Assembly: GCA_963693315.1 (NCBI GenBank)
Contig: OY856188.1
Coordinates: forward strand, 194,194,322 to 194,258,321
From: Diogma glabrata
Lineage: Eukaryota > Arthropoda > Insecta > Diptera > Cylindrotomidae
DNA: 64,000 nt
Direction of reading: 5' to 3'
A program made the translations under genes and the position numbers. Every line of letters begins with the position of its first letter. Position 1 is the first letter of the stretch. The notes under the pieces are model-generated. The model did no database searches. It was not told the DNA's origin and was given only the letters and a program-made list of their open reading frames with translations. Below are positions 8,164 through 36,601 of this stretch, one piece after another.

Positions 8164-8599
8164 AGTAGTGTTGTGACACTATGTAGGATCTTGTGGGCTT
8201 TCGTAAATGGCACAATATACTAAGCTTGTGCACCCAAAAAAATTTTCAAGTGCCACAAGGGTATTTTGGACTTGGGTATTGACTCAAGCATTAAATTAAC
8301 TGAATTGTACAAATTTCACACATCTCTGGCATAAGCATGATCGTTTAGGAGGTTTCTCGAGTAATAATTGAATAGGTTAGCGCCATTTCAAAGGTGTGAA
8401 GCCTATGTTATGTGTAATTTAGCTCTGTAATAGTTTTCATAGGCTTAATTAATAGTTACGTAGGTCATGTAATGCATAATTTATCTGCGTACTTGTTTCA
8501 CACACCTAACTCACATGGTCGCATTAAATTAGCTAGGTGTCAATATAAATTTATATATATAATTTACATTTTCAATTTTTGTGACATTTGAAATGAAAT

Positions 8600-9070
8600 A
8601 TGAATTCGTTATCATTGTTAAGTAGAAATCTGTTCTGAATTCAGTTCTCACGCTACTGTTATCTTTTAATTAATTACAATTGATTATGCCACTACATCTT
8701 AAAAATTATTTAATTTTTGCTATCAGTTTTTGAATTCAGAAATAAAATCTTTGTGCCACTACATTTTAAAAAATATTAAATTTTCGTTATCAGTTTGAAT
8801 TCAGAAATAGAGAGTTTTGTGGGATTACATCTTAGCAGTTATCACGCTTCTGTTATCTTTTAATTAATTACAATTGCTTGTGCCACTACATCTTAAAAAT
8901 TATTTACTTTTTGCTATCAGTTTTGAATTCAAAAATAGAATGTTTTGTGGGATTACATCTTAGTTGTGACATTACATCTTAGAAAGCAAAATTTAATTCG
9001 GTTATCAGTTTTTGAATTCAGAAATAAAATCTAAAATTGGTTATCATGTCAAGCATTTGTATGTTTGAAT
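8600..9070 (+). repeat. Polinton subterminal repeats, left
   Basis: Three to four diverged copies, spaced roughly 100-150 bp, of a block combining GTGCCACTACATCTTAAAA (or GTGGGATTACATCTTAG) with TTTTGAATTCAGAAATA and GGTTATCA-type words. The same array is present in the right arm at 35690-36165, so it predates or was copied with the arm. It lies between the terminus and the first gene and may contain replication or packaging signals; that is inference. Confidence 0.65.
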
Positions 9071-9325
9071 ATATTTTAAGTATATATTTTCACGTTTGTG
9101 GGATTTCAGTTAAAGAAATAATTCAATTCGGTTATCGGTTATCATGCCAATGTTATCTTTTAAATAATTATACCTATTGAATTAAATTTCTTTGTAGTTA
9201 TTTAATTGTGGTTTATTGTGTTTTAAGCTTTTGTATCCAGTTGTTGTGAAAAGGTTTAGAACATAAGATTACAGATCCTGTTAATTACTTGAGTTTACTG
9301 CTAAAACAAAACTGCCATGAAAGTT

Positions 9326-9333
9326 TATAAATA
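9326..9333 (+). promoter_or_regulatory. Putative TATA box of ATPase, left arm
   Basis: TATAAATAGCAG lies about 45 bp before the ATPase start codon. The same 11-mer TATAAATAGCA occurs at 23770 before the spliced gene in the centre and is conserved in the right arm (35434). Confidence 0.5.
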
Positions 9334-10937
9334 GCAGTTCGATTTGTACAGATTATTTATTGCTGACAAAATGTTTAACATGGAAATTCCCTTCACGATG
9401 CAGATAAGTGGACCATCAAGTTGTGGGAAAACAACTTTTGTCTTGAGACTCCAACCACAATTTCAGGGTATAAAGAAACTGATTTGGTGTAATGGTGAGA
9501 AGAACTCAGTATCGGCAAATGATTTAGAATATTTTGAAGAAGTTAATATGTTGGATTTTGTTCCCACAAACTTTGACAACTTAGAAAATACGTTAATAAT
9601 TTTGGATGATTTGATGACGGATGCCTATACCAAAAATGTTTGTGAGCTGTTTACTAAAGGTTCGCACCATCGAAATGTTTTAGTGGTCTTGATCACACAA
9701 AATGTCTTTCACACACAAAAAAATCGCATGGTTATCCAGTGAGATGTTTTAACCATACAATGTTTGAAATTTTGAAAAATGGTGAAAACAAACAAAACTT
9801 TAGTTAAAATAACTAGATTTATTTCTGTTTTAACCATAATCAAATTTCAACCATGATAATTTATTTATGTATACAAAAAATTGTTCTAAAATATATAGTC
9901 TGTACCATGTTATAGTTCTTTTAAAAATAAACATATGGTTATTAACATGGTTAAACATAACCATTGCATGGTTAAAATCAATCATGATTATGGTTGATTT
10001 TAATCATACATAAATATAGAAAACTAACCAAACTTATGGTTATTAGCATGGTTAAACATAACCATTGCATGGTTAAAGTCAACCATGATTATGGTTGATT
10101 TTAATCATACACAAATAAACAAAACTAACCAAAATATGGTTGTTTTCAATCATAATTACGAAACATAATATGGTTATTTTCAATAATATACATGGTCATT
10201 TCAACCAATACAATTCTTAATATGGTTGTTTTTCATCATATGAGTGAAAATTTAAAAATTAACTTCCGCAGTTCGCATCGTTAGTTTTAAATCAACATCC
10301 AAAGCGAAAAGAAGATTGAACAAAAGTACTTAAAACATCGTTTAAGTGAAAAATTATCATATTTTTAATTTTAATAAGTGAAATATAAATATTAATAAGT
10401 GAAATATAAATAAAGTGCATAAAATATTTTCAAATACGACAGAGCAAGTGGTAAGTTTTATAATTTACGGACCATTCTTTTGTAAGTGTACATCGATTTT
10501 TTTACGCCAAAATTCTAAATATTTGGTATTCTATCTTATTGGTATTAACAAATGGAAAAATCTAAATTCATGATAATTTTTTGCTCTGAAATTGAGGTTA
10601 TGTGTTTTGGACAGTTTTTAAAGTGTTTTCGGTATAACGTCGGCATTTTTATTAATAACTCTCAGAAATTTGATTCAATTGTTATTAATTTTTGTAAGTG
10701 GTTGTAGAAACAATTATTTTATCGAGGAATGGTTATTAGAAATTTATGATTAATCTCATTTCCGTGTGGTGCGTTAGAACTAGTGCTATAGGGCTAGCTA
10801 TAGGGTTAGCTGATTTAGTTTTTCTTTTGTTAATACCAATAATAACATAACTAATTTACAGATTTGAAAAAAACCGACAGAACAATGTACATTTTCAACA
10901 AAATAGCCCTTCAATATTACAATTTAATGCCTTAAAT

Positions 10938-11615
10938 ATTTTTTTTTTTTTTTTTAATAAATTGTGATGTGTAGTAGGCATTACAATATGTGTCACAACA
11001 ACACATAAAAACCTTTTAAGACCAAGGTCCCACAACAACATGCGTTCTAAGGATGTTAATGGACGCAAATCTGTTTATTTTTGTTTTTTTTTAATATTTT
11101 TTTGTTAAATAACGGATAACTAAACCATAAATCCTATCACATATAAAATATGACATAGGCCAATATTTCGTGATAGGATAGGGAAAATAAAAATAAAATA
11201 AGAGATAAAAAGCAAATTTGTTTTAAAAATTTGCAGGAACAAAACTAAAATTGGTTTGCCAATAGTCCAGGTAATGGCATAATCCTTGATTATGGGACGC
11301 AGTATATTTTTCAATGATTAAAGCTCAGATATATAGTTATATGAAGGCTCGTTTCTTCGAGCAAGCTACAGCGTTCCAGCATCAAGGAATATTCATTAGC
11401 TAAGATTGAGAGTGCTACCGTTGACATGAATACAGTTCATCCGCCAGCACCCCTAAAATATCACCTTGGCTAGTGATATCTCACTGCTATTGCCAGTGGT
11501 ATGTGATATCTCACGTTAACTCATATGTCAATAGCAGGGACTGGAGTACGCGGGGTTGTCACACCCGTGAAATAGAAAAAAATTAACAAATTAATAAAAA
11601 CTGATCCCTCCATGC
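10938..11615 (+). repeat. Dispersed repeat family A, long copy
   Basis: Starts with a T run, then AATAAATTGTGATGTG. It passes the CAACATGCGTTC block and a segment on TCGTTTCTTCGAGCAAGC, and ends near GTTGTCACACCCGTG and a TAATAAAAACTGATCCC tail. Read on the minus strand it ends in poly-A, so it resembles a retroposed sequence. Nested in E1. Confidence 0.7.
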
Positions 11616-11841
11616 GTTAATTTGGTAATATTTACGTATATTTATGTTTTGGCTGTAATCGTGTTTTGAAATAAATTTTTTATTCGCCTAAATATTAAAG
11701 CGTAACTCTGTGTAACTACTGTGATTTGCGGCTTTAAAATGTCACTTTTTAATATGTATTTTGTATATGTTTCAATTCTTTAAAAAAATAGAAAGTTTAA
11801 TCAAAGCAACCTTTCAATTCAAAATTTGATAATCCAATGAC

Positions 11842-12019
11842 CCTTTCAACACTTGTTTGCAGTGCAACGCATCACTTCTTTATTTTTTACCTATAAACTA
11901 AGCCTTCGTACCTTATCTATAAACTAAATTGGGGTTGCCATATTTTAGTTTAGTTTATGGAGCAAAGAAGCAAGAAACGAAGAAGTGATGCGTTGCATTG
12001 CTTACCCGTGTGGAAAGAG
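11842..12019. repeat. Small palindromic MITE-like repeat
   Basis: The arms include TGCAACGCATCACTTCTT and its reverse complement and extend imperfectly to about 45 bp per side. The spacer holds two TATAAACTAA-type words. Nested in E1. Confidence 0.6.
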
Positions 12020-12184
12020 CCAATCAAAATAATTGTTTTTTATTAGTGTCATAGTCATAAGATTTGTTTGAAAAAAATAACAAATACTTTGGTCAAAGGT
12101 TACTCTTGTTCAACATATTTTTATTTCAAAATTTATAAATTTTTTAATTTTGATTTAGACTAAACAATCTTTTTTAAATATTTT

Positions 12185-12345
12185 GCTTACGGCGAATTAA
12201 AAATAGTATGTATATGATGTACGGACGTAAGCCATTTTGGACTTAATGTAGGTGCAAATCTCAGCTAGCGAAAACTCCACATACGTCCAAAAACCTTAAC
12301 TTTACGTCCTTGCATCATAATGTACTATTTTACGGCTTAACTAAA
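12185..12345. repeat. Imperfect palindromic repeat
   Basis: Arms around ATAGTATGTATATGATGTAC and GGACGTAAG on the left pair imperfectly with the complement on the right. Non-coding, probably a small MITE. Nested in E1. Confidence 0.45.
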
Positions 12346-12652
12346 ATTCCACCATTTTATTACAATTTTTAAAAGTACTTCGTTTGATATTGTTTTTTTT
12401 CATTTCAGATGGTCAACAACTATAGTTAATCTATACTATATCTTTCATGAAATACATCAGAATAATTAATGAAACTTGTTTTTTATATTGTAATATTATA
12501 ATTAGATATATAATAATTGTATTGTAATTAGATATTAGAAATATATAGTTAATGAATTTCATAATAAATATTTCTATTTTCAAAAAATTACATTTATTTG
12601 TTTGTGTTTTTTTTATCAACCAGGTTTTCTCTTTTTGATTATATTTGATGTA

Positions 12653-13944
12653 CTAGGTCATTCAATAAGTCCGTAGGATGACACATAGATGGCATTACTA
12701 GAATTTTTTCCATATGATTTTTATTTAGTACTAACCTTCAAACGATACGTGTATAAATTTGACAGCAATCTGACTATTTATTCGTGAGTTATAGCATTTT
12801 GTGTGAAGCAACTTTTGTTTTTGAAAAAAAATGGAAAAAAGTGAATTTCGAATTTTAATAAAGCATTGCTTTTTGATGAAAAAAAATACAGTGGAAACCA
12901 AACAATGGCTTGATAAACATTATCCAAACTCTGCTCCATCGAGACAAATGGTAGAGAAGTGGATGGCTGAATTTAAATGTGGTCGTACCAGCACAAAAGA
13001 TGCAGAGCGCAGTGGACGCCCAAATGAGGCTGTTATTCCAGAAAACATAAAAAAAATCCACAAATTGGTTATGAACGATCGCAAATTGAAGGTGCACGAA
13101 ATAGCTGACATTGTAAAGGTAGCAGATGGTAGTGTTTTTACCATTTTACATGAAAATTTGGGTATGCGAAAGCTCTGTGCAAATTGGGTGCCGCGTGAGC
13201 TCACAGTCGACCAAAAACAACAACGAATCGATGCTTCAGAGGAGTCTTTGGCACTGTTAAACCGCAATAAAAGGGAATTCTATCGTAGATATGTGACAAT
13301 GGATGAGACATGGCTTCACAATTACACACCAGAATCCAAAAGACAGTCAGCTGAGTGGACAGCAGTCGACGAACCGAATCCAAAGCGAGCAAAGACGCAA
13401 CAGTCGGCCGGTAAGGTGATGGCGTCTGTATTTTGGGATACGAACGGAATAATATTCATCGACTATCTCCATAAAGGAACCACCATCAACAGAGAGTATT
13501 ACTGTGAACTTTTGGATCGATTGAAGGCTGAAATCGCAAAGAAACGGCCACATTTGCAAAAGAAAAAAGTGTTGTTTCACCAAGATAATGCACCGTGTCA
13601 CAGATCGATGAAAACGATGGCAAAATTGAATGAATTGGGCTTTGAATTGCTTACCCACCCACCATATTCTCCAGATTTAGCCCCCAGCGACTTTTTCCTG
13701 TTTTCAGATCTCAAGAGAATGCTTGCTGGAAAGAAATTTAAGTCCAATGATGAAGTAATCGCTGAAACTGAGGCCTATTTTGACGAGAAAGAGAAATCGT
13801 ACTATAAAAGTGGTATAGAAAAGTTGGAAAATCGCTATACTCGTTGTATCGCCCTCGAAGGCAACTATGTTGAATAAAAAAATCGAGTTTTGTCAAAATG
13901 TTGTTTTTTTCTTACTTATCCTACGGACTTATTGAACGACCTGT
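12653..13944 (+). mobile_element. Mariner element (irritans-type), apparently complete
   Basis: The element is 1,292 bp with TIRs built on AGGTCRTTCAATAAGTCC GTAGGAT at both ends, and TA on each side (12651-12652 and 13945-13946). Size, TIR and TA duplication are those of Mariner. It carries one uninterrupted transposase gene. It sits inside E1, inside the Polinton, inside LINE-A, so it is a late arrival. Confidence 0.95.
12831..13877 (+). CDS. Mariner transposase, intact
   Basis: A 348-residue uninterrupted ORF of full mariner length. The N-terminal part (about 1-110) is the paired-type HTH DNA-binding region. A WVPRELT motif, matching the WVPHEL motif of mariners, falls near 123. The catalytic DD34D triad is complete: MDETWLHNY (first Asp), HQDNAPCH (second) and YSPDLAPSDFF (third, 34 residues after the second). 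The sequence closely resembles the irritans subfamily (Himar group). It cuts and pastes the element at TA sites. Start chosen at the ATG after the 5' leader; stop is 67 bp before the right end. No frameshift or nonsense seen, so it could still encode active enzyme. Confidence 0.95.
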   Translation: MEKSEFRILIKHCFLMKKNTVETKQWLDKHYPNSAPSRQMVEKWMAEFKCGRTSTKDAERSGRPNEAVIPENIKKIHKLVMNDRKLKVHEIADIVKVADGSVFTILHENLGMRKLCANWVPRELTVDQKQQRIDASEESLALLNRNKREFYRRYVTMDETWLHNYTPESKRQSAEWTAVDEPNPKRAKTQQSAGKVMASVFWDTNGIIFIDYLHKGTTINREYYCELLDRLKAEIAKKRPHLQKKKVLFHQDNAPCHRSMKTMAKLNELGFELLTHPPYSPDLAPSDFFLFSDLKRMLAGKKFKSNDEVIAETEAYFDEKEKSYYKSGIEKLENRYTRCIALEGNYVE

Positions 13945-14024
13945 TATACTAAATAAAACAATAGTATATTCAACTATATAGGGTAAACAAAATATGGTTC
14001 AAATATCGTCATCATATGGTTTTC

Positions 14025-14480
14025 TTTAAATAACATTAACCATAAAATTTAGTTAATATATCACCATAGTATGGATATGCATCTATAACATCAACCATAA
14101 AATATGCTCAATGATAACCATAGTATAGTTCTGTATGCATAACGTTAACCATAAAATATTGTTAATATACCACCATACTATGGTTATATATCTGTAACAT
14201 CTACCATAAAATATGCTTAATGATAACCATAGTATTGTTCCGTATATATAATATTAACCATGAAATATGGTTAATAATCACCATAGAATGGTTCTGTATA
14301 TAAAATATCAACCATAAAATGTGGTCAATTATTACCATAGTATGGTTCTGTATCTATAATATCAACCATAAAATGTGGTTTATAATTACCATAGTATGGT
14401 TTCTTATATACAACAGCAACCATAAAATATAGTTAACATATAACCATAGTATGATTCTCTAAAAATTTGATCAATATAAC
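14025..14480. repeat. Tandem word repeats in the right end of E1
   Basis: About seven to eight diverged units of about 60 bp, each carrying ACCATAAAATATGGTTAAT followed by ACCATAGTATGGTTCTGTAT. They make up most of the right terminus of E1. Confidence 0.7.
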
Positions 14481-14716
14481 CATAAAATTTTTTTGTGTGC
14501 ATCAAGGGAAAATTTGCCGGGATATATCATTAAACTGTAAATATTTAGTTGTGTTCAACAATCCAAGGGATAAATCACAAATTTACCCCCTTGCACGGCA
14601 AATTTATTCTGAACGTGTAGCTGAGCTTGTAAGGGTATATAAAGAGGCTGCGTCGAAACCGCATGGTTATTTATTCATGGATTTAATTTCCCAGCTCAAC
14701 CGTTATGAAACGTCTA

Positions 14717-15037
14717 ATGGAGCACAAGCATACGTTACATTTCTTAAAAAATTGTAAGCCTTGCGAACGTAAATATATTTTATCAAAAAGTCAACCAGAT
14801 CTAATAAAAACCTTATGTGAAATTTGTATGAATGTTTTAAATGGAAATGTCAAATTAAGCAAAAGCTGCAAAACCCATTTGAGTAATTATAAGCGTTCTT
14901 TACGTAAAATTACCGATCCAAAAACTAAGCTATCAGCGAAACGTAAGGTTTTGATTCAAAAAGGGGGGTTCTTACCAGTTATTTTAACAGCTGTATTATC
15001 TGGACTAGTAGCTGGAAGCTGCTTGAAAGAGCATTAA
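14717..15037 (+). CDS. Polinton pX-like small virion protein, left copy (intact ORF)
   Basis: About 106 residues. The N-terminal half has Cys residues (CKPCERK, CEIC). A basic middle (LSKYKRSLRKI-like, here SNYKRSLRKITDPKTK) leads to a QKGGFLPVILTAVLSGLVA tail that is hydrophobic. A basic body followed by a GGF..hydrophobic end is a recurring small Polinton virion protein, compared with adenovirus core or minor capsid proteins; the exact role is not proven. It overlaps the ATPase end by 41 bases and is 1 base from the next gene, a compact virus-like layout. The right-arm copy has a nonsense codon and an insertion. Confidence 0.65.
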   Translation: MEHKHTLHFLKNCKPCERKYILSKSQPDLIKTLCEICMNVLNGNVKLSKSCKTHLSNYKRSLRKITDPKTKLSAKRKVLIQKGGFLPVILTAVLSGLVAGSCLKEH

Positions 15038-15038
15038 A

Positions 15039-15881
15039 ATGAGTTTACAACGCATGTTTGATGTTCATCCTGATACGTTTGAACGTTGGAAGAAAATTAT
15101 ACTTGATGACAATAATTTATCAGTTTTAGATCGAGAAATGAAAAAAATTTTATACAATAATAAATTGAATGATGTTGATAAATGAAATCTTTACCGTCAC
15201 AATCTTGTAAAGTCTTTAAACGTGAGGAGTAGGTCAGACGGTATGCTAAATCTCCGGTCGCGATTATCAGATGAAATTGGCCATGGTGAACCCCCAGTTA
15301 GGAAAAATGTATATTCGCAAACGAAATTCTTTAGAAAACAAAACGTAAAAATGCAAACAGAGAAACCAACCAATCAAAATGCTGTTACACAGATTTATAG
15401 AATGATGAAACAACTTGAAGAAATGCCATCGTTGGAAGAAGTTTTTCAAACTTCAAATAAATTTTCTAGTTTCGAACATGATCTAGATCAGGAAAACGAT
15501 CAGGGTCAGATTAATTTTAATCGTAAAAATATTGAGAACGATGAATATCAAGAACTTGATAGAGATGATAGTTATCGTAAAATAGCTTTAGAAGGTCAAC
15601 CACCAAACGTACGAATTTCGAAGGAGCGAGAATCTTTGAACCCAAATGAATATAGATTGTTCGAATTGAATACGAGTCAACAGGTTAATGTACCCGTGGA
15701 AAAGCGATTTACTCGATCAGCATTAAAAAGATCTAGAGACGATCCTAGTCAAACTGTTCTAAATTTTCCGCAACAGCGTAAGAAAACTAAAAGTGAAACA
15801 AGTACACCGAAGAAATCAAGTAAAGTTGCACCGTCACAGTCAAAAATGTCAGATATACCCTGGCAAGTATATAAATTTTAG
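15039..15881 (+). pseudogene. Polinton virion-type protein (280 codons), left copy with nonsense
   Basis: The frame opens at an ATG one base after the pX-like stop, with a conserved-looking N-terminus (HPDTFERWKKII, LDREMKKIL). Codon 49 is TGA; the right-arm copy has TGG at this place, so this is a point nonsense. The rest stays open to 15881 and is hydrophilic, with acidic middle and basic, Ser/Thr/Lys-rich C-terminus (KRSRDDPSQT, KKTKSETSTPKK). Length and position match an uncharacterised protein regularly found beside pX in Polintons. Function unknown; perhaps a core or scaffold protein. Confidence 0.65.
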
Positions 15882-15990
15882 TTTTGGCTTTATCTTCATC
15901 ACTTATCATCACAAGTTGTTAACAAACATCAACTGAAACAATGTTAACATTCAAAAATCTTTTTATGTAACATTAACAAGTAATAGTTCA

Positions 15991-16821
15991 TTGGATTTAT
16001 TTCCCCAAAATACTTTATCAAGGATTACTGTAAAATTACCTTATGCACTTAATCTTAGATGTAACGATGACACAGAATGGTTTATGGTTATAACGAAATT
16101 TGCTTGCACATCTATCGAGAAAAAACTAGATAAAGAGAAAGATCCAACTCTAACGTTTATAACAGAACGAGGTAATGCTGGGCTAGATATAGTGGATATT
16201 TTAAAACAATTTCCAGTTTTATTTGAAATTGTTCAACATGAAGAGTTTTTCAATCGATACACTGATCCAACAAATCTTCCAAAGTATGTGTTCTCAAAAG
16301 CTTTCGTTCAAGTTAGTCTTGATAAACATAACTACAAATTAAAATTCGGTAAAACATATACCGTTACTCAACTCTTCGACTCTCTTTTTTCACAAATTGA
16401 AAAAAAAGATTGGGCTAACATTATTAAAAATGTGAAAGCGTCAAATACAAATGAATCGTCCTCAGTCTTAACTGAACCAACACTGGATGTTATCAGGAAA
16501 CGTGTAAAAGTAAATACAAAAGAAAACGAGCAGCAACCAGAAAATATACCAAACTACATGTGTATTTATTGTGATTTAGCCAGACCTCAGATGTTTGGTA
16601 ATGTTATGGCTAGAGGTTTAGTTATGCATCCAGTTAAGTATGGAAAACAATACGAGAGTTATCAGAATTTAGATATCGTAAATATTCAATATGTGCCAAT
16701 TGAAAAAACACAAGTTACCGATATTAGCATTTTGATAACGGATGAAAATGGTGTACAAATTAATTTCAAAGACGATTCATTTAGCACAATGGTATTATTA
16801 CATTTTCTCAAAGATATATAA
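15991..16821 (+). CDS. Penton-like minor capsid protein of Polinton, left copy
   Basis: An open frame of about 276 residues, with no clear ATG. The frame is open further upstream (to about 15945) and the first codon shown is TTG, so the true start is uncertain or lost. The C-terminal third contains YMCIYCDLARPQMFGNVMAR and VPIEKTQVTDISILITDENG, the conserved tail of the smaller Polinton capsid protein, the putative vertex/penton protein. It precedes pVI-like and hexon genes in the same direction. The right-arm copy is broken by two insertions and a frameshift, so this is the better copy. Confidence 0.7.
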   Translation: MDLFPQNTLSRITVKLPYALNLRCNDDTEWFMVITKFACTSIEKKLDKEKDPTLTFITERGNAGLDIVDILKQFPVLFEIVQHEEFFNRYTDPTNLPKYVFSKAFVQVSLDKHNYKLKFGKTYTVTQLFDSLFSQIEKKDWANIIKNVKASNTNESSSVLTEPTLDVIRKRVKVNTKENEQQPENIPNYMCIYCDLARPQMFGNVMARGLVMHPVKYGKQYESYQNLDIVNIQYVPIEKTQVTDISILITDENGVQINFKDDSFSTMVLLHFLKDI

Positions 16822-16854
16822 AGAGGTGAAACTAGTCATTAGATTTATTACACT

Positions 16855-17392
16855 ATGCATAACACCTATTTAAAGTATTACGCAATTCAACATGGGGGTT
16901 ATAGTAATAATAATCAAACCGTCAACGATGAATTTGGAAATGTGTTAAGATTGCCGCATAAGTATATCAGCGTGGTCGTGGGTTTGGTAGTGTCTTCGCC
17001 AGTTTTTGGAAATATCTTCAACCACTTCTAAAAAACGGTGCAAATTTCATAAAGAACGAGTTGATTGATACCGGAGGCGACATATTGAAAAATATTAGTA
17101 TACAAAAACCAATTCAAAATATTTTACGTGATCGATCGACTCAAATAGTTGATAAATTAAGAGATAAGGCGGTCGAAAAAATTAATACAATGGCTGGGTC
17201 AGGTTCAAGAAAGAGTCGTAAACGAAGAAAACGTAGTAAAAACAAACTCTTGACGAAACCAATAAATAGGAATTCAAAACGAATTGAAAAATAATCGAAG
17301 ACGTTATTAGTTCGAGTTAAGAGGCCTCCTCCACCACGCTCTAGAGTATTCAAACAATCATCACCGCGAGTTTTAGATATATTTACATAAAA
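16855..17392 (+). pseudogene. pVI-like minor capsid/membrane-active protein, left copy
   Basis: The ATG at 16855 starts a frame reading NTYLKYYAIQHGGY. Near 16955 the coherent frame shifts, continuing in another frame as RGRGFGSVFASFWKYLQPLL, then INTMAGSGSRKSRKRRKR. A Gly-rich amphipathic segment followed by a basic tail resembles the pVI-like small proteins of Polintons, thought to help membrane passage; that role is inference from the family. The same frame break is present in the right arm. The left copy also has a private nonsense (TAA at about 17292), where the right copy reads on to 28477. Confidence 0.55.
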
Positions 17393-18436
17393 TTTTATAA
17401 CGTTCAAACAAATACAAAACTAAAGAAAATAAAATGTCTTTTCGAGAATGTATGAAATCCGAATTAGATCTTTTTGCCCCTCGTAACATTCAAACAAACA
17501 TTTTAAAAGCCGAAGAAGTTGCTTATAAGCTTTTAACCAGTTTAGAAAATCAATCAATTATCGAATTCATATGTCATGGACACGGGGATATGTACATAGA
17601 TTTATCTTCAATAAATATTTGTGTGAAACTTCAATTGACTAAAGGGAATGGAACCTTGTACACGGATAAAGATACAGTTCAGCCAACTGTAGTAAATAAT
17701 ATGCTACATTCATTGTTTCGGCAAGTTAACGTTTCGTTAAATGGAAAGAACATAAACGTTTCGGACGGAAATTATAGCTACAGAACAGGGGCGTCAATTG
17801 GGTAGGGCTGGGGGGGGCATTGGCCCCCCCAAGGATCTGATACTATCAATAATTCAATACATCGATTCAATAAAACCATCCAATCGTGGTAGAATTAACA
17901 CTATAAAAATTTCAATGCACGGTTATTTTGTGAATTCGTCTAATTAACTAACTATCTAACTTAACTAATATACCAATTTTATCGCATACTATTAATTGAA
18001 ATATATCTGATAATATAATTATTACGTTACATATTATTTTGGCCCGACTAAAGTACAGTTCACCGCAATATTCAAACCGTTATCGTTCTTTGTATCAAGG
18101 ACTAGAGCGCCGCCGATACGAAAGGCGGTCGTATTGCTTCTAATCTTCTGATGAAATCAGTTTTATAAACAAAACACGATCGTTCTTCCAAAAACGCCGT
18201 GGGTGCGTATTTTGACAAAATTCTATCGTACTAGGCATTACCGCTTTTAGAAGAACGATTGTGTTTTGTTTATAAGATATTCGTGTCTGAGCCAGAGGAA
18301 ACAAAACATTTCATTAGTATAGGGCTCCTCGAGGGTTCATAGTGCAGTATTTAATATTCAAATTTCAATTGTTATTGGCCATTGGTAATTTATATAAACT
18401 TAAAAGTAAGTACATGCAGGAGAACACAGCCTAATT

Positions 18437-20944: not shown

Positions 20945-21295
20945 ACAAAAAGCTGGTTGCAATTTGCGCTGATAACACGAACACCAATTATAGTGGTGTC
21001 ATGTCAAGGGGTGAAAATTTAAAAGCAAACTAAACGCGAATTTGAACCAGAATGTATTGGGTATTGGATTCGCAGCCCGTATTCTAAATAATGCAATAAG
21101 AAGTGCTGCGGATTTAAATGGCAGGGTTAAACAAATTTGGATATTTTACTGTCTTTACTGGTTTAAGTTGAAGGAGTTCTGCGGCAAAAGTAATGTCAAA
21201 CATAACCAACTTATTGGATACAGTGAAACTCGCTGGCTGGCGGTAATGCCAGACCTAGAAAGAATTTTGAAAATGTACGAACCACTGTAAGCAGA
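20945..21295 (+). pseudogene. hAT transposase fragment
   Basis: Reading ICADNTNTNYSG, then LGIGFAARILNNAIRSAAD and LIGYSETRWLAVMPDLERIL, it aligns with the transposase at 51240-51640 (ISADNTNTNFGG, LGIGCNAHIASNAI, LLGYSSTRWLALSNAI). It carries one catalytic Asp region and the RW motif, has frame breaks, and lacks both ends. It is the only transposase remnant visible in the hAT at 17786-22094. Confidence 0.75.
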
Positions 21296-26278: not shown

Positions 26279-26382
<104 letters not shown>

Positions 26383-27051: not shown

Positions 27052-27131
27052 TGCTTTAGAGGTAAAAGGTTATGATGCTTGCGGTTAAAGGGATAATGGT
27101 TTTGATTATGTTTTGTTATAATTTATAAGTG

Positions 27132-28428
27132 TTATTGATCTAAAATTATATTTCTATTTTTATCAATCTCTAAGGTTGTATCGTATTCCATGTAAATTAA
27201 ACAAGTTGTGGTAGTTGGAATCGGTGCTTCAAAACGAGCTTCGAAACGTATATTTCCTTGATTAAGTAAAGACGAACAGTTATCGTTGGCCGATAAATCT
27301 GATGTAAGATCGTACGCAATCATAAAATATCCGTGTGCGTACATCTCCTTTGTGATGAGGTTGCCGTGAGATGAGTGTAGTATACCCATCGTAGAAAATA
27401 AGCTCGAATACGCACGCGCATACGAATCACCGACTGTGAATAAGGTTGTAATCGAGGCACTTGGTGTTGGAACCCCATTCACATACAGGATACATGATGT
27501 AACTTTATTGTGTTTGAAATTATAAGGACTCTTTTTCTTCGTCCCAATATATGCATCGTTATCAACCATGAAAAATATTAGGTTAGTTGGCAGCTGGCCC
27601 AACACAATATTATCCAAGTTTTAGGAGTTACCACTTGCCGGAATCGTATATGATTTCACCTCACATCTCTTAGAATGATACTTTGCCTTTGTATGTTCAA
27701 GCATCTTATGATGTGCAATTAAAACATTTGTATTAATTGTACATTGTTTTACGTAAATTGTTGCTTCAAGTATTTTTATCAATGTGTCATCGTTTGCCGA
27801 ATCGGTTAAAACATAAAATTCAGGTTTGTTGAGCGTAAATGTTAATCTCACATCTACATTGTTCAAAAGCAATAACGGTTGATTTAACATATCTGCATGC
27901 ACTTTTCCATATAATTCCACGATGTTACTATTTTTCAACAAGGTTTGCCTTTTTGCTAATCCTTCTTGTAATGGTTGTAATGTATCAAGTTTTTTTGTGT
28001 CCGGGTAAAATCCCGATAGGTCTAAATGCGTTCTGCTCGCATCCTCACCAAAATTCAACAATGTTTCAATGTACGTTCTGTAGCTATAATTCCCGTCCGA
28101 AACGTTTATGTTCTTTCCATTTAACGAAACGTTAACTTGCCGAAACAATGAATGTAGCATATTATTTACTACAGTTGGCTGAACTGTATCTTTATCCGTG
28201 TACAAGGTTCCATTCCCAAGTCAATTGAAGTTTCACACAAATATTTATTGAAGATAAATCTATGTACATATCCCCGTGTCCATGACATATGAATTCGATA
28301 ATTGATTGATTTTCTAAACTGGTTAAAGGCTTATAAGCAACTTCTTCGGCTTTTAAAATGTTTGTTTGAATGTTACGAGGGGCAAAAAGATCTAATTCGG
28401 ATTTCATTTTATTTTCTTCGTTCGAAAA
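27132..28428 (-). pseudogene. Hexon-like major capsid protein, right copy, nearly full length
   Basis: The only copy reaching the C-terminus. The start at 28428 runs into a local sequence change and stop after a few codons; the next ATG (28407) joins the KSELDLFAP frame. A one-base deletion near 28210 (TTGGG where the left has TAAAGGG) shifts the frame. A TAA near 27620 interrupts it again before NLDNIVLGQLP. The C-terminal part with MVDNDAYIGTKKKSPYNF follows the Polinton major capsid pattern. Total span about 430 codons, slightly short for the family. Product would be the capsid shell protein. Confidence 0.85.
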
Positions 28429-28476
28429 GACATTTTATTTTCTTTAGTTTTGTATTTGTTTGAACGTTATAAAATT

Positions 28477-29000
28477 TTATGTAAATATATCTAAAACTCG
28501 CGGAGATGATTGTTTGAATACTCTAGAGCGTGGTGGAACTCGAACTAATAACGTCTTCGATTGTTTTTTAATTCGTTTTGAATTCCTATTTATTGGTTTC
28601 GTCAAGAGTTTGTTTTTACTACGTTTTCTCCGTTTACGACTCTTTCTTGAACCTGACCCAGCCATTGTATTAATTTTTTCGACCGCCTTATCTCTTAATT
28701 TATCAACTATTTGAGTCGATCGATCACGTAGAATATATTGAATTGGTTTTTGTGTACTAATATTTTTCAATATGTCGCCTCCGGTATCAATCAACTCGTT
28801 CTTTATGAAATTTGCACCGTTTTTTAGAAGTGGTTGAAGATATTTCCAAAAACTGGCGAAGACACTACCAAACCCACGACCACGCTGATATACTTATGCG
28901 GCAATCTTAACACATTTCCAAATTCATCGTTGACGGTTTGATTATTATTATTATAACCCCCATGTTGAATTGCGTAATACTTTAAATAGGTGTTATGCAT
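28477..29000 (-). pseudogene. pVI-like protein, right copy
   Basis: Same gene as at 16855-17392. The frame break near 28880 (between PHK and YQRGRG in sense) is shared with the left arm. After it the frame runs through GSGSRKSRKRRKRSK to VFKQSSPRVLDIFT without the nonsense codon of the left copy. The basic, Arg/Lys-rich C-terminus ends 49 bp before the hexon ATG. Confidence 0.55.
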
Positions 29001-29861
29001 AGTGTAATAAATCTAATGACTAGTTTCACCTCTTTATATACCTTTGAGAAAATGTAATGCTACCATTGTGCTAAATGAATCGTCTTTGAAATTAATTTGT
29101 ACACCATTTTCATCCGTTATCAAAATGCTAATATCGGTAGCTTGTGTTTTTTCAATTGGCACATATTGAATATTTACGATATCTAAATTCTGATAACTCT
29201 CGTATTGTTTTCCATACTTAACTGGATGCATAACTAAACCTCTAGCCATAACATTACCAAACATCTGAGGTCTGGCTAAATCACAATAAATACACATGTA
29301 GTTTGGTATATTTTCTGGTTGCTCGTTTTCTTTTGTGTTTACTTTTACACGTTTCCTGATAACATCCAGTTTTGGTTCAGTTAAGACTGAGGACGATTCA
29401 TTTGTATTTGACGCTTTCACATTTTAATATTGTTAGCCCAATATTTTTTTTCAATTTGTGAAAAAAGAGAGTCGAAGAGTTGAGTAACGGTATATGTTTT
29501 ACCGAATTTTAATTTGTAGTTATGTTTATCAAGACTAACTTGAACGAAAGCTTTTGAGAACACATACTTTGGAAGATTTGTTGGATCAGTGTATCGATTG
29601 AAAAACTCTTCATGTTGAACAATTTCAAATAAAACTGGAAATTGTTTTAAAATATCCACTATATCTAGCCCAGCATTACCTCGTTCTGTTATAAACGTTA
29701 GAGTTGGATCTTTCTCTTTATCTAGTTTTTTCTCGATAGATGTGCAAGCAAATTTCGTTATAACCATAAACCATTCTGTGTCATCGTTACATCTAAGATT
29801 AAGTATTGTGACACGTATTGTTATTCCTACTACACAACACATTTTGTTAAAAAAAAAAACA

Positions 29862-30584
29862 GCAAAGCTATTAGCTACTTTGGGTTTAGCATTTCGTGGT
29901 CATCGAGAAGGTATTGATTCGAACAGAAAAGGAAATTTTATGACATGCATTGTGTACCTATCCCAATTTGATGATTTTCTTAAAAATCATTTGGAGAAGT
30001 ACAGCCATCCAGGAAAAGGTAATGTAAATTATTTATCACATACCACATATGCGATGAATTTATAAATTTAATGGGAACTGAAGTAAAAGAACACCTTTAT
30101 AATTCAAAAAATTCAGGACTCTTTATATTATTCAATTATTGTTGATTCTACGCTAGACGTGAACCACACTGACCAACTAAGTTTTATATTAAGGTACATT
30201 GATAAAGTGGGCGATGCGATTTTTACAAAATGAAAATTACAATTCAGAATATCTAGCACAACTTATTTTGAAAACTTGAAACAATTTGTCTTTGGATATT
30301 AAAAATATTATATTTTTTATGTTTTTATATTATAGTTTTTTTGGGTATTATATGTTGCATATTTATTAAATCTGATAACTTTTTGTATAAAATGACAGAC
30401 AATTAAATAAACATAGGTATATATATTTTTTTATATCAAATTTTCTATCTTTTTATTAAAAAGTTTAAAAAATAAAAATGTGTTTTTAGTCAGAAATATA
30501 CATATAAAATTTTTGGTAAAATCTTAAATTTGGCCCCAAAACTTTGTTCCGCCTCAGGCCCTTTAAAGCCATAATTCGCCACTG
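29862..30584 (+). pseudogene. hAT (DUF4371/ZMYM1-like) transposase fragment with right terminus
   Basis: The plus strand reads LLATLGLAFRGHREGIDS, then NRKGNFMTCIVYLSQFDDFL, NYLSHTTYAM and SIIVDSTLDVNHTDQLSFI. This is the N-terminal to first-catalytic-Asp region of hAT transposases with a DUF4371 domain. A CAGTGGCGAATTATGG end (complement, at 30584) looks like the hAT terminus. Stops interrupt it and most of the gene is gone. Confidence 0.75.
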
Positions 30585-31039
30585 CTTTTGACAAAATCAA
30601 CGACACCACAATAAATTTAATTCACCAAGAGTTCGTCACGGACCTGCTGAGATACCAAAAGTTTTTACAGTCGACTTCTAAGCAAATACTTCGTTGTACG
30701 CAATGAAATTCGTTTATAGTTTGGCACAAAATATACTAGAAAAGCGAAATGGCTGGCACTTATATATAGAATGCAATTTTTGACTAAGGTTGACCAAACG
30801 TTGCGACCAAAGAAATGTATTGTATTGAAACTGTAAACCGAACCTAATTTCATCAATATTTTATACAGTAATATTTTAAAAAACTATACAAAATAGGGGC
30901 CCGGGGGAAATGAAATACGGGCCATCTTTACATTTATGTTATTATATTAACCAATTTAATAATTTAATATCACAAAAATTAAAATGTTGTATTTGTTTAA
31001 AAACAATTTTACAAGAATGTTAAATATAGGTGAATTCAT

Positions 31040-31670
31040 TTTTTTTAATAAAATGCGTTGTGTAGTAGGAATTACAATATGTGTCACAACAAAACATAAA
31101 AACTTTTTAACACCAATATCTCACAACCACATGCGTTCTAAGGTGTTGATGGACGCAAATCTTTGTTTTTTTTTGTATTTTTATACTTTTTTCAAAGAAT
31201 TAATAACTAAACACTAAATCCTATAACATAATATAAAATATGACATAGGCCAATATTTCGTGACAGGATAGAGAAAATAAAAATATGAAATAAGAGATAA
31301 ATAGCAAATTTGATTTAAAAATTTGCAGAAACAAAACAAAAATGGGGTTGCCAGTAATCCAGCTACACTGTCTTCCTCAATGAATAGTTCACACATAGAT
31401 ATGAAGGCTCAATTCTTCGAGCGAGCAATAACTTTCCATCGTCAAGGAATACTTCATAGCTAAGATTGAGGGTGCTACCGTCGGCTGAATAGAGTTCATC
31501 CGCCAGCACTCCTAATTGCTATCATCTTGGTTAGTGATAACTGATACCTCATTATTTTCGCTGCTATTGCCAGTGGTATATGTGATATCTCACGTGAACT
31601 CGTATGTCAAAAGCAGGGACTGGAGAACGTGCGGTTGTCACAACTGTAGATTAAAGATTAAAAAAAAAAT
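31040..31670 (+). repeat. Dispersed repeat family A, long copy
   Basis: T run, AATAAAATGCGTTGTGTAGT, CCACATGCGTTCTAAGG, GCTCAATTCTTCGAGCGAGC and GGTTGTCACAACTGTAG in family order. Confidence 0.7.
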
Positions 31671-32020
31671 TACAAATAAAAATATGACAATCGCATCGAT
31701 CCAGAATGAAAATAAACAACTATTTTGAGATATTATATTTATTTTATATTTTGTATGATATTTTAAATCAAAATGGTGATATTTTTCCCTTTTGACTAAC
31801 ACATGAGACTGTCAAAATATTTGAAAAATTATTTTGGTGTCAACAGAAAATGTTTATTCTGTTCTCAAAAATTTCTCAAAAGGATTTTGACGTAATTATT
31901 TTCATTCTGGATCGACCCGATTATCCCTCTTCCATGCGTATATTTTTTAAGCACGAAGCATAAGGTAATTTTACAGTAAACCTTGATAAAGTATTTTGGG
32001 GAAATAAATCCAATGAACTA

Positions 32021-32682
32021 CACAGTTAAAAAAAATTGAATATGTAATGTAAATTGCTACACATATAGGTCCTACGGAAGTTTCCATTACAAAACAATAC
32101 AAAGCTTGCTATATAAAGTTAAACTAATGCTCTTTGCATCAATATTTAACAGAGTACTTGGAGTAAAATAAAAAAGCTTGTTGTTTAAAAATGTCTGTTA
32201 TTTGCATTAAATAAATTACGCACAACTTTTTTTTAGTATGACATTTTAATACAAATTATATCATAATTTCGAGATACTTTGATTATTACGCACTTGCCTA
32301 AATTAATCAAATTAAAATAAAAAAATTACAACGGAAAAAATTAAAACATACATACCGCCTTAATCACTATTATTATAGACTTTCAGCTGAGAAGCGATAA
32401 CTAAAACATACATGAAACGATTTTAACTATATATTTTTAAAATGGATAATACTCTAGTGAATTTTAAAATTTCATTAATGTATTAAATTGTAGCAAGGTG
32501 CATTAAAACTTCTAGCTGTTCTATAGAAATACATTATGATGCAAGAGTTGTTTTAAATTTTATAGAAATGCATTGAAATTAGGTTTAATGCAACATTTAC
32601 TTTACAATTCAATAATAACCTGCAACGCATAGCTCCTATTGCACGACTTGCTTTAAATGTTGCAGTTACTTTTTCAACTGTG
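32021..32682. mobile_element. Element E3: 662-bp MITE with TA duplication
   Basis: The ends CACAGTTAAAAAA and CACAGTTGAAAAA (complement) are inverted, with TA on both sides (32019-32020 and 32683-32684); the left arm shows the empty site. The right half is rich in the words ATGCAAC, GCATTAAA and GTTGCA. The core (about 32330-32470), with GCGATAACTAAA and GATAATACTCTAGTGAA, recurs in E2. Confidence 0.88.
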
Positions 32683-32802
32683 TATTACTTGTTAATGATA
32701 CATAAAAAGATTTTTGAATGTTAACATTGTTTCAGTTGATGTTTGTTAACAACTTGTGATGATAAGTGATGAAGATAAAGCCAAAACTAAAATTTATATA
32801 CT

Positions 32803-33627
32803 TGCCAGGGTATATCTGACATTTTTGACTATGACGGTGCAACTTTACTTGATTTCTTCGGTGTACTTGTTTCACTTTTAGTTTTCTTACGCTGTTGCGG
32901 AAAATTTAGAACAGTTTGACTAGGATCGTCTCTAGATCTTTTTAATGCTGATCGAGTAAATCGCTTTTCCACGGGTACATTAACCTGTTGACTCGTATTC
33001 AATTCGAACAATCTATATTCATTTGGGTTCAAAGATTCTCGCTCCTTCGAAATTCGTACGTTTGGTGGTTGACCTTCTAAAGCTATTTTACGATAACTAT
33101 CATCTCTATTAAGTTCTTGATATTCATCGTTCTCAATATTTTTACGATTAAAATTAATCTGACCCTGATCGTTTTCCTGATCTAGATCATGTTCGAAACT
33201 AGAAAATTTATTTGAAGTTTGAAAAACTTCTTCCAACGATGGCATTTCTTCAAGTTGTTTCATCATCCTATAAATCTGTGTAACAGCATTTTGATTGGTT
33301 GGTTTCTGTTTGCATTTTTACGTTTTGTTTTCTAAAGAATTTCGTTTGCGAATATACATCTTTCCTAACTGGGGGTTCACCATGGCCAATTTCATCTGAT
33401 AATCGCGACCGGAGATTTAGCATACCGTCTGACCTACTCCTCACGTTTAAAAACTTTACAAGATTGTGACGGTAAAGATTCCATTTATCAACATCATTCA
33501 ATTTACTATTGTATAAAATTTTTTTCATTTCTCGATCTAAAACTGATAAATTATTGTCATCAAGTATAATTTTCTTCCAACGCTTAAACGTATCAGGATG
33601 AACAACAAACATGCGTTGTAAACTCAT
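32803..33627 (-). pseudogene. Polinton virion-type protein, right copy
   Basis: Right-arm partner of 15039-15881. The codon that is TGA in the left copy is TGG here. However, a 2-bp deletion near 33310 shifts the frame and a CAG-to-TAG change stops it at about 32829. Arms thus carry different lesions in the same gene. Confidence 0.75.
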
Positions 33628-33635
33628 TTTAATAC

Positions 33636-34756
33636 TCTTTCAAGCAGTTTCCCTCCCATACAAGGTTGTACAACTGGTCCAGTAATGGTCCATTACTGGC
33701 AGCCAGTAATGCAGCAATGGGCGAGTACTGGCAACCACGACTGGGCCATTAACATAATTTTACTGTATGATAACTACGGACAATAAATGGTTGCCATTCT
33801 TGGGCCAAATACTAGCAACCATGACTGAGCCGTTAAAAAAATATACATTATTATCATACGTAAATTTAAATAAATTAAATACAAACTAATTTAAAATAAA
33901 ATAAAAATGACGGAAAAAATTCAAAACTCCCTATACAACTGGTTCAGATGCAAGAATGGCTGAGTAATGGCAAACACCGCCAGTACTCCGCCATTAAAAA
34001 AAAATATAAAATAATATTTTTTATACATAAATTTAAATAAATTATTTACAAAATAATTAAAATAAAATAGAAATGAAAATAAATTAAAACATATACCAAC
34101 CTTTTCTTTATTACCATAGTCTTTCAACCGACAAGGCGATAACTAAACTATATGTGAAATTTTTCAAACTATGTACATATTTCTAAAAGGGATAATACTC
34201 TAGTGAAATTTAAAAAAAATGACATAGATCGGCAAATTCATGGCTACAGTACTGGCCCAATAACAATAGCCAAGTAATATTTACCATTCATGGGCCAGTG
34301 CTTGGCCATTCAAAGGTAACAATATACTGGCTATTTTCTGTAAACCATAGATCGGCCGATGATTGGTTCTAGTATTGGCCCAGTAACAATAGCCAAGTAC
34401 TGTTAACCATTAATGGACCAGTGCTTGGCCGTATGCCAATGTCTGGCGAAACCTACTTGGGCTACTAGTCCAGATAATACAGCTGTTAAAATAACTGGTA
34501 AGAACCCCCCTTTTTGAATCAAAACCTTACGTTTCGCTGATAGCTTAGTTTTTGGATCGGTAATTTTACGTAAAGAACGCTTATAATTACTCAAATGGGT
34601 TTTGCAGCTTTTGCTTAATTTGACATTTCCATTTAAAACATTCATACAATTTTCACATAAAGTTTTTATTAGATCTGGTTGACTTTTTCATAAAATATAT
34701 TTACGTTCGCAAGGCTTACAATTTTTTAAGAAATGTAACGTATGCTTGTGCTCCAT
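33636..34756 (-). pseudogene. pX-like small virion protein, right copy
   Basis: Same gene as 14717-15037. A TCA-to-TGA change near 34690 stops it, and E2 is inserted near the C-terminus after SGLVA. The GGF..LTAVLSG hydrophobic tail is still readable. Confidence 0.75.
33653..34460. mobile_element. Element E2: about 808-bp insertion with ACTGGCCA words
   Basis: It interrupts the pX-like gene; the left arm shows the empty site. Both ends are packed with ACTGGCC/GGCCAGT-like words (for example TGGTCCATTACTGGC and GGCCCAGTAACAATAGCCAA). The core (33840-34220) shares GCGATAACTAAA and GGGATAATACTCTAGTGAA with E3. No clean terminal inverted repeat was found. Confidence 0.75.
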
Positions 34757-35396
34757 TAGACGTCTCATAACGGTTGAGTTGGGAAACTAAAGTTGATGGT
34801 GCATAACACTCTTGATAATCCTTATTGAAAATATTAGTACGAAAACGAAATAAATCGTTACACGATTGCGTTAAATCCATGAATAAATAACCATGCGGTT
34901 TCGACGCAGCCTCTTTATATACCCTTACAAGCTCAGCTACACGTTCAGGATAAACTTGCCGTGCAAGGGGATAAATTTGTGATTTATCCCTTGGATTGTT
35001 GAACACAACTAAATATTTACAGTTTAATGATATATCCCGGCAAAATTTCCCTTGATGAAAGACATTTTGTGTGATCAAGACCACTGAAACATTTCGATGG
35101 TGCGAACCTTTAGTAAACAGCTCACAAACATTTTTGGTATAGGCATCCGTCATCAAATCATCCAAAATTATTAACGTATTTTCTAAGTTGTCAAAGTTTG
35201 TGGGAACAAAATCCAACACATTAACTTCTTCAAAATATTCTAAATCATTTGCCGATACTGAGTTCTTCTCACCATTACACCAAATCAGTTTCTTTATACC
35301 CTGAAATTGTGGCAGGAGTTTCAAGACAAAAGTTGTTTTCCCACAACTTGATGGTCCACTTATCTGCATCGTGAAGGGAATTTTCATGTTAAACAT
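34716..35396 (-). CDS. Packaging ATPase, right copy, intact ORF
   Basis: 226 residues from the ATG at 35396 (the open frame extends 9 codons further without an ATG). Walker A GPSSCGKTT near residue 15 and Walker B TLIILDDLM near 80. Downstream, SVVLITQNVFHQG matches the sensor-like segment of A32-type packaging ATPases, and a C-terminal helix ends VTFLKKL. About full length for Polinton ATPases. It would power genome packaging in a capsid made by the hexon and penton-like proteins. It overlaps the pX-like gene by 41 bases. This is the only morphogenesis gene in the right arm without a break. Confidence 0.9.
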   Translation of the reverse strand: MFNMKIPFTMQISGPSSCGKTTFVLKLLPQFQGIKKLIWCNGEKNSVSANDLEYFEEVNVLDFVPTNFDNLENTLIILDDLMTDAYTKNVCELFTKGSHHRNVSVVLITQNVFHQGKFCRDISLNCKYLVVFNNPRDKSQIYPLARQVYPERVAELVRVYKEAASKPHGYLFMDLTQSCNDLFRFRTNIFNKDYQECYAPSTLVSQLNRYETSNGAQAYVTFLKKL

Positions 35397-35433
35397 TTTG
35401 TCAGCAATAAATAATCTGTACAAATCGAACTGC

Positions 35434-35441
35434 TATTTATA
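35434..35441 (-). promoter_or_regulatory. Putative TATA box of ATPase, right arm
   Basis: TATAAATAGCAG on the minus strand, about 40 bp before the ATPase ATG; identical to the left-arm site. Confidence 0.5.
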
Positions 35442-35689
35442 AACTTTCATGACAGTTTTGTTTTAGCAGTAAACTCAAGTAATTAACAGGATCTGTTATC
35501 TTATGTTCTAAACCTTTTCACAACAACTGGATACAAAAGCTTAAAACACAATAAACCACAATTAAATAACTACAAAGAAATTTAATTCAATAGGTATAAT
35601 TATTTAAAAGATAACATTGGCATGAGAACCGATAACCGAATTAAATTATTTCTTTAACTGAAATCCCACAAACGTGAAAATATATACTT

Positions 35690-36165
35690 AAAATATATTC
35701 AAACATACAAATGCTTGACATGATAATCAATTTTAGATTTTATTTCTGAATTCAAAAACTGATAACCGAATTAAATTTTGCTTTCTAAGATGTAATGTCA
35801 CAACTAAGATGTAATCCCACAAAACATTCTATTTTTGAATTCAAAACTGATAGCAAAAAGTAAATAATTTTTAAGATGTAGTGGCACAAGCAATTGTAAT
35901 TAATTAAAAGATAACAGAAGCGTGATAACTGCTAAGATGTAATCCCACAAAACACTCTATTTCTGAATTCAAACTGATAACGAAAATTTAATATTTTTTA
36001 AAATGTAGTGGCACAAAGATTTTATTTCTGAATTCAAAAACTGATAGCAAAAATTAAATAATTTTTAAGATGTAGTGGCACAATCAATTGTAATTAATTA
36101 AAAGATAACAGTAGCGTGAGAACTGAATTCAGAACAGATTTCTTTAACAATGATAACGAATTCAT
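35690..36165 (-). repeat. Polinton subterminal repeats, right
   Basis: Mirror copy of the array at 8600-9070, with the same order of TTCTGAATTCAAAA and TTTAAGATGTAGTGGCAC blocks. Confidence 0.65.
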
Positions 36166-36601
36166 ATTTCATTTCAAATGTCACAAAAATTGAAAATGTA
36201 AATTATATATGTAAATTTATATTGACACCTAGCTAATTTAATGCGACCATGTGAGTTAGGTGTGTGAAACAAGTACGCAGATAAATTATGCATTACATGA
36301 CCTACGTAACTATTAATTAAGCCTATGAAAACTATAACAGAGCTAAATTACACATAACATAGGCTTCACACCTTTGAAATGGCGCTAACCTATTCATTTA
36401 TTACTCGAGAAACCTCCTAAACGATCATGCTTATGCCAGAGATGTGTGAAATTTGTACAATTCAGTTAATTTAATGCTTGAGTCAATACCCAAGTCCAAA
36501 ATACCCTTGTGGCACTTGAAAATTTTTTTGGGTGCACAAGCTTAGTATATTGTGCCATTTACGAAAGCCCACAACATCCTACATAGTGGCACAACACTAC
36601 T

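Follow-up and report, generated by a model that had tools for sequence, protein, structure and literature searches.

The element at positions 8164-36601 of the window (the whole 64,000-nucleotide stretch of Diogma glabrata DNA that was analysed) is a single Polinton-derived insertion of 28,438 bp. In place of its left end it carries an inverted duplicate of the right arm, with the join inside polB. It was inserted once, with a 6-bp duplication. The element is probably an integrated snap-back (copy-back) Polinton genome, which would have formed during protein-primed replication and then been inserted. Its features are as follows, with the strand given where there is one.

8158..8163, left target-site duplication AATATG; together with its right partner it yields an open LINE frame once the flanks are joined
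8164..22288 (+), left arm, which copies the right arm in inverted orientation between the terminus and mid-hexon, composed of inverted blocks and holding two later insertions; against L036, L041, and L042, the two arms group together
9712..14499, later left-arm insertion, carrying a mariner transposase (12825-13877)
17787..22093, later left-arm insertion, with a target duplication seen as a 10-bp overlap of the blocks in right-arm coordinates
22288..22289, putative copy-back junction of hexon and polB, with 2 nt of shared sequence
22289..22416 (-), start of polB (~43 codons), truncated at the junction, 81% identical at the amino acid level to the polB frame of L048 (residues 7-49)
24645..25379 (-), integrase, with traces of an rve core and a chromodomain, both below the Pfam cutoff, and ~54 codons missing inside
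25794..26258 (+), 154-codon open frame between integrase and protease, with no function assigned
26501..27051 (-), protease, which from its motif and the gene order we take to be adenain-like, interrupted by the filler
26868..26906 (+), 39-bp filler, an inverted hexon piece inside the protease, copying hexon 27829-27867 with 38/39 identical
27132..28220 (-), most of the hexon (major capsid) gene, with one stop at ~27621
27890..36601 (-), right (donor-type) arm, continuous with the remaining hexon and the protease, holding three later insertions
28477..28893 (-), pX-like basic protein frame; left copy ~16960-17380
29034..29899 (-), predicted penton-like frame, interrupted, named from gene position only; left copy 15937-16821
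29805..31957, later insertion in the right arm, with a DUF4371 trace below cutoff, presumably linked to hAT
32021..32682, later insertion in the right arm, with a TA duplication
32829..33639 (-), PZ-like frame, named from gene position; left copy 15048-15881
33653..34460, later insertion in the right arm, without a clear target duplication
34716..35396 (-), packaging ATPase of FtsK/A32-like type with an open frame; its left copy (9371-9721 and 14500-14754) is interrupted
36602..36607, right target-site duplication AATATG

The termini are AGTAGT...ACTACT, so that both AG..CT ends have been kept as originally predicted, and AATATG lies immediately outside each. Once the flanks are joined, the LINE frame across the target site is open for 357 aa, and therefore all 28,438 bp belong to a single insertion. 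The aligned arm blocks total 5,019 bp (left) and 5,005 bp (right), and the centre between the arms (22289-27889) is 5,601 bp, giving a net length of ~15.6-15.7 kb without nested insertions, close to the 15.7 kb that had been estimated. Long inverted repeats are hard to assemble, and the locus might be an assembly error or two separate Polintons. The matching target duplication and restored LINE frame rule out the latter and also count against the former, as do the 71 differences and the private insertions that distinguish the arms, and the location of the locus in a 290-Mb contig; this explanation is very improbable.

Both arms are tiled by inverted blocks of 97-99% identity, in agreement with the prediction that the two ends are inverted copies of the ATPase-to-hexon module. 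The longest inverted matches are 1,748 and 1,560 bp (E = 0), and on these matches a chance origin is out of the question. The 71 differences are spread over 4,997 sites, and dN/dS between the arms is 0.65, which is not different from 1 (P = 0.15), in a count in which the pX frame was misread.

The gene content is that of a Polinton lacking most of polB. The packaging ATPase was assigned by Pfam and by a named relative in Drosophila-associated adintovirus 2, at 50% identity, and the capsid and protease by their sequence resemblance to frames, themselves unnamed, of a contig that carries polB. A retroviral-type integrase is present, with 68-74% identity to the 306-aa relative P0121, but has lost ~54 codons, and so integration by the element's own integrase cannot be assumed. 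Only ~43 codons of the protein-primed polB are left, while other copies in the genome (L040, L043, L059) carry the gene, and because of this the element is classed from its sequence as a Polinton derivative and not a complete Polinton. A polB hidden inside the nested insertions was not found, either by Pfam six-frame scans of 9712-14499, 17787-22093, and 22289-36601 or by tblastn across the window; as a positive control for the Pfam scans, polB of L001 and L002 matched PF03175. The PZ-like frame gave no match to the L002 frame, and nothing useful came from PDB sequence searches, a homologue search with the frame 23941-24273, viral-contig scans, or a phage-collection search. Structure models had a mean pLDDT of 32 for the hexon piece and 30 for the penton.

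The replaced segment was expected to hold polB. This is what is seen in the relatives: among the copies sampled, polB is at the end replaced here in L040, L043, and L059, and in part in L039, and ordinary sampled copies have polB at the left end and ATPase to hexon at the right. In one such copy of 15,659 bp (C4:184095471-184111129), the counterpart of the missing end is 5,676 bp and that of the copied arm 5,092 bp. One end has thus been copied over the other and the polB end lost, as had been proposed. Two other arrangements were considered and dropped: that polB lay on the outer side of the ATPase, an order seen in contaminant contigs L001-L004 (in this genome it is at the other end), and that the replaced end was only ~1.3 kb, as L024 had suggested (dropped after the hexon/junction spacing and the polB position in other copies).

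Seven other pairs of termini in the same genome, probably representing 6 insertions, have terminal repeats of ~0.6-1.6 kb. A 6-bp duplication was found in 4 of the 5 pairs looked at, and the fifth could not be judged. The hexon site and the junction site are apart in 14 copies, separated by 4.87-4.90 kb in 12 of them, and each of the 14, among 40 scored places, has one hexon-site match. The element carries no polB beyond ~43 codons, and might therefore belong to an established subfamily in which 5-kb terminal repeats and the absence of polB are the rule. The genome was searched for the inner junction as had been suggested; 40 places out of 97 candidates were scored, and only at this element is the junction whole. 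In addition, none of the 7 other pairs shows ATPase near both termini (within ~1.9 kb). The short repeats of these pairs and a junction whole at only one of the scored places led us to reject 5-kb repeats as the family norm, and the relatives, with polB present in those sampled, are not the kind of parent that would have overturned the original prediction. There is hardly any likelihood left for a subfamily of this kind.

The timing of the duplication bears on whether it was made in the chromosome. A left-half break after integration could have been repaired by synthesis-dependent copying that ran inward from the right terminal repeat, stopping in hexon and end-joined in polB. This would give the same final structure, and the 2-nt junction and templated 39-bp filler also fit end joining. 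However, the outer terminal repeat shows no excess of differences over the inner arm (5/458 against 66/4,539, P = 0.68) and so is not the older part. None of the five nested insertions is common to both arms, each being private to one, and none of the coding lesions looked at is shared. Around the ATPase, the distance between the arms is about that of either arm to the separate copy L037, as expected if they had diverged within the pool of replicating genomes rather than later, in the chromosome. Repair must therefore fall soon after insertion, and we regard it as unlikely. By a simple timing model, duplication when the element was inserted is favoured 5 to 7 fold. The timing evidence for formation before integration is moderate, since the 458 bp of terminal repeat are also compatible with a duplication soon after insertion.

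Alternatively, two right-end fragments, one broken in hexon and one in polB, could have been joined tail to tail and then integrated. The same structure would result, and the 2-nt junction is in keeping with it. Over 742 bp of the ATPase region, the arms share only 1 base lacking in L037 (private bases: left 5, right 6, L037 5), because of which the donor may be a sibling genome; the nearly equal distances mean that the two arms could likewise stem from two sibling genomes. In the hexon-penton stretch, by contrast, 13 sites have a base common to both arms and absent from L036, L041, and L042, against 1 site that groups the left arm with L036 and 1 that groups the right arm with L036. Fragment joining also leaves unexplained a filler template that ends 22 nt from the start of the long inverted copy and runs in the same direction. 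It is an unlikely origin, though slightly less so than chromosomal repair.

The filler is absent from all 3 other copies that cover the protease site (L042, L051, and L052 do not cover it). The link between filler and junction was made post hoc, and rough arithmetic gives 0.4-2% by chance. The end of the filler template and the arm start, 22 nt apart, fit an aborted and then a productive fold-back.

A snap-back genome would arise as follows. In protein-primed, strand-displacing replication, a strand would start at the right terminus and pass the capsid genes. At the protease it would fold back on its own hexon sequence over 39 nt, return to the template, and proceed through integrase into polB, where the junction cuts inside polB codons after about 43 codons. 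A second fold-back, on the same hexon template but 22 nt further on, would let the strand be copied to its own 5' end. The product, with two right-type ends, could be copied and integrated by proteins from an ordinary genome. We infer that the template was the same molecule rather than a near-identical sibling genome. This full account, with two fold-backs of one protein-primed strand and a defective genome of near-normal length (~15.7 vs 15.66 kb) integrated in trans, is tentative, its chances falling just short of even. Of the original proposal that a displaced strand folded back and was inserted as a defective genome, the fold-back before integration is favoured by the arm ages and the filler, and is inferred, not shown.

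The element resembles the adintovirus group of Polintons/Mavericks in its AGTAGT...ACTACT ends, 6-bp duplication, and ATPase, integrase, protease, and hexon-like genes, and differs in having only ~43 codons of polB, a doubled ATPase-to-hexon arm, and inverted repeats of ~5 kb. Defective adenovirus genomes have long inverted duplications, in which one end of a protein-primed linear genome has been copied over the other; the element differs in being preserved in a host genome, integrated by an integrase. AAV replicates by hairpin priming. In an excerpt of PMC8235507, asymmetric AAV snapback genomes have one end inverted and duplicated round a unique loop, with the other end and its genes lost. 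The element has this same structure, although the AAV forms described there were found in particles, and a Polinton is known here as a chromosomal insertion. Intact vertebrate Mavericks have inverted repeats of 46-1,447 bp, according to part of PMC8097293. Adintovirus contigs with a duplicate or C-truncated hexon are listed in part of PMC11071296, with Adinto21560 having both; this is what snap-back would give, although that part of the paper does not describe the structure. No Polinton with such a snap-back structure is among the literature matches listed.

To our knowledge, animal Polintons are difficult to catch in a free, replicating form. Indirect evidence that they replicate as linear, protein-primed, strand-displacing genomes, and that they make the same errors as such viruses, comes from a snap-back derivative integrated with a clean target duplication. 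If true, the locus with its two fold-backs would be a chromosomal fossil of a DNA-virus defective genome, and would be evidence for free replication of this Polinton as a protein-primed linear genome. Any assembly can be searched for the pattern, which consists of two ends of the same type, one hexon cut, a loop, and a filler by the fold point, and the error rate of Polinton replication would thereby be measurable from fossils. Such fossil defective genomes may have interfered with active elements.

Two stretches of the Polinton, window 8155-22288 and 27890-36609, are tiled by blocks in inverted order with 97-99% identity. The aligned blocks sum to 5,019 bp in the left arm and 5,005 bp in the right, which bears out the original prediction of inverted capsid-module arms of about 5 kb. 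The centre (22289-27889) is 5,601 bp long, and the arms are interrupted by later insertions:

9712-14499, later insertion in the left arm
17787-22093, later insertion in the left arm
29805-31957, later insertion in the right arm
32021-32682, later insertion in the right arm
33653-34460, later insertion in the right arm

The element runs from AGTAGT to ACTACT and is flanked on both sides by AATATG, the 6-bp duplication predicted around one unit. When the flanks are joined and one AATATG is kept, a LINE frame is open for 357 aa across the insertion site, and 8164-36601 is therefore a single unit, inserted once. The right part of the interrupted frame matches endonuclease models, and upstream of the endonuclease it contains what we take to be a 2A-like stretch and a PHD-like cysteine pattern. 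The host LINE is recorded at window 8158-8163 and 36602-39629. Remains of an RVT_2 retrotransposon (presumably Copia-type) and of another LINE are found at 43006-44451 and 53218-57254. Direct repeats about 127 and 67 bp long lie subterminally in both arms (window 8642-9032); their blocks vary in number and spacing between copies.

Inward from the right end, the gene order is ATPase, PZ-like, penton-like, basic pX-like, hexon, protease and integrase, all on the minus strand. The matches are:

ATPase, right end, minus strand: Pox_A32 model; named relative in Drosophila-associated adintovirus 2 (50% identity)
hexon, minus strand: 28% identity to an unnamed frame in the polB-bearing contaminant contig L003
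protease, minus strand: 32% identity to an unnamed frame in the same contig, L003
integrase, innermost, minus strand: weak rve and chromodomain matches; 68-74% identity to a 306-aa relative

The names hexon and protease lean also on motifs that we take to be characteristic, while penton-like and PZ-like are named from gene position. The hexon carries a stop, the right-arm PZ frame has a 2-bp gap, and the integrase lacks about 54 codons. A (TA)48 microsatellite lies between integrase and protease (26282-26378); matches to L036, a piece of a 9.4-kb copy, break off at 26294 and restart at 26366, so the repeat seems longer in the window element.

One arm was predicted to have replaced the segment holding polB, and three or four of the relatives sampled do carry polB at that end. 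In the 15,659-bp copy at C4:184095471-184111129, the piece from left terminus to junction site (L040) has a minus-strand frame matching residues 50-1188 of the polB of L002; outside the junction site its left end measures 5,676 bp, against 5,092 bp for the right arm. Two further copies, C1:151354733-151370991 (L043) and C1:353150465-353183034 (L059), have polB at this end too, and the C-terminal part of polB is seen in C1:166522903-166541665 (L039) and in a capsid-less copy (L035). The polB-start region is present three times, about 4.7 kb apart, in C1:353150465-353183034. L002 is one of four Polinton- or adintovirus-like contigs (L001-L004) that are probably contamination in MAGs assigned to bacteria: Photobacterium, Rhodocyclaceae, Limnohabitans and one unnamed bacterium. 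In 4/4, polB is upstream of the ATPase on the same strand, with one frame intervening in L001; Pfam identifies the polB of L001 and L002, and sequence similarity that of L003 and L004. Window 22416-22288 encodes 43 residues, 81% identical to residues 7-49 of the L048 polB frame, and no polB beyond these was found anywhere in the window. At the junction, 2 nt are common to hexon and native polB sequence, and its right side is 99% identical to L044. The structure of the element, and its origin from an ordinary polB-bearing relative, are shown.

The terminal repeat has at least 46 matches in its own genome of 1.328 Gb (40 of 103 candidates scored). Seven other pairs, probably representing six insertions, have terminal repeats of about 0.6 to 1.6 kb, unlike the window element, where the end-to-end match continues beyond 1.55 kb. 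A parent with 5-kb repeats and no polB was sought in this genome; among the places scored, the relatives have the shorter repeats, and three or four sampled copies have polB. A 200-bp query spanning 22288|22289 gave 97 candidates, of which 40 were scored. The junction is whole at one place, the window itself; another is the right arm of the same element, 30 belong to 14 other elements with both halves apart in opposite orientation, and eight hold one half. All 14 have a single hexon-site match, which starts 4,870-4,904 bp from the junction-site match in 12; one has three junction-site matches, and some may be haplotypes of a single insertion.

Other copies differ in content. In C1134:17577-31818 and C4:41363905-41378548 (L008, L009, L016, L019, L035, L037) the ATPase end runs directly into the integrase, and neither the capsid genes nor the protease gene are present there; these are probably two haplotypes of one insertion, since they have the target duplication AAAGTT in common and flanks 98-99.7% alike. 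The 9.4-kb copy C3:257566891-257576329 (L013, L015, L036; target duplication GACGCC) has an open integrase frame beside the left terminal repeat, the expected place of polB. L024 (C3:188979398) has a Polinton-type end and, after it, a frame that by eye resembles Pif1 helicase and stretches matching window 22524-22986.

The arms differ at 71 of 4,997 sites (K2P 0.0144), with 5 differences in the terminal 458 bp and 66/4,539 in the rest (P = 0.68), and divergence is homogeneous among blocks (P = 0.60). Assuming about 3e-9 substitutions per site per year for insects, the insertion would be about 2.5 million years old. dN/dS between the arms is 0.65 (P = 0.15 against 1). Each nonsense change found in PZ or pX is private to one arm, as are all five insertions. 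Given the substitution counts and either 5 or 9 private lesions, a timing model with a uniform prior on duplication time prefers duplication at the time of insertion, 5 or 7 fold. Over 1,424 gap-free hexon-penton columns (328 gapped columns set aside), 13 sites group both arms against L036, L041 and L042, one pairs the left arm with L036 and one the right. Around the ATPase, 5 sites are private to the left arm, 6 to the right and 5 to the capsid-less copy L037, one is common to the arms alone, and 14 are common to arms and L037 against L011, L015 and L012. In this region L037 stands at about the same distance from either arm as one arm from the other. The same molecule may therefore have been the donor, or else a sibling genome of the same burst. 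The arms would have separated at about the time when that burst's copies did, and this speaks against late copying in the chromosome.

The protease contains a 39-bp filler (26868-26906), the inverse of hexon 27829-27867 with 38/39 identical. The site is shorter in the three other copies covering it (L036; L041 with L049; L050), and the protease match continues across it in L036 and L041. The left arm starts at the hexon position that corresponds to 27890, which is 22 nt beyond the filler template, on the same template and in the same direction; by rough post hoc arithmetic, the chance of such nearness is about 0.4-2%. A strand starting at the right terminus and folding back on itself would give right arm, loop and inverted right arm, the whole structure without extra assumption. 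For the filler, the same strand would have folded onto the same hexon stretch and then left again, in the orientation observed; this first fold would leave a 39-nt self-complementary stem, ending 22 nt from the start of the final fold-back. An identical product would come from joining two right-end fragments, or from repair in the chromosome with the other terminal repeat as template; filler and timing speak against both, and we consider each improbable, the second slightly more so.

TIR lengths and gene order have been reported for vertebrate Mavericks (PMC8097293), symmetric and asymmetric snapback genomes for AAV (PMC8235507), contigs with duplicate and truncated hexons for adintoviruses (PMC11071296), and lengths of 13.3-14.6 kb for Drosophila adintoviruses (PMC8363768). 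No snap-back or inverted-duplication Polinton appears in titles or abstract openings among the matches listed from the open-access literature. Adenovirus has defective forms comparable to snap-back. The best reading of the Diogma element, which we consider fairly probable, is replicative fold-back before integration.
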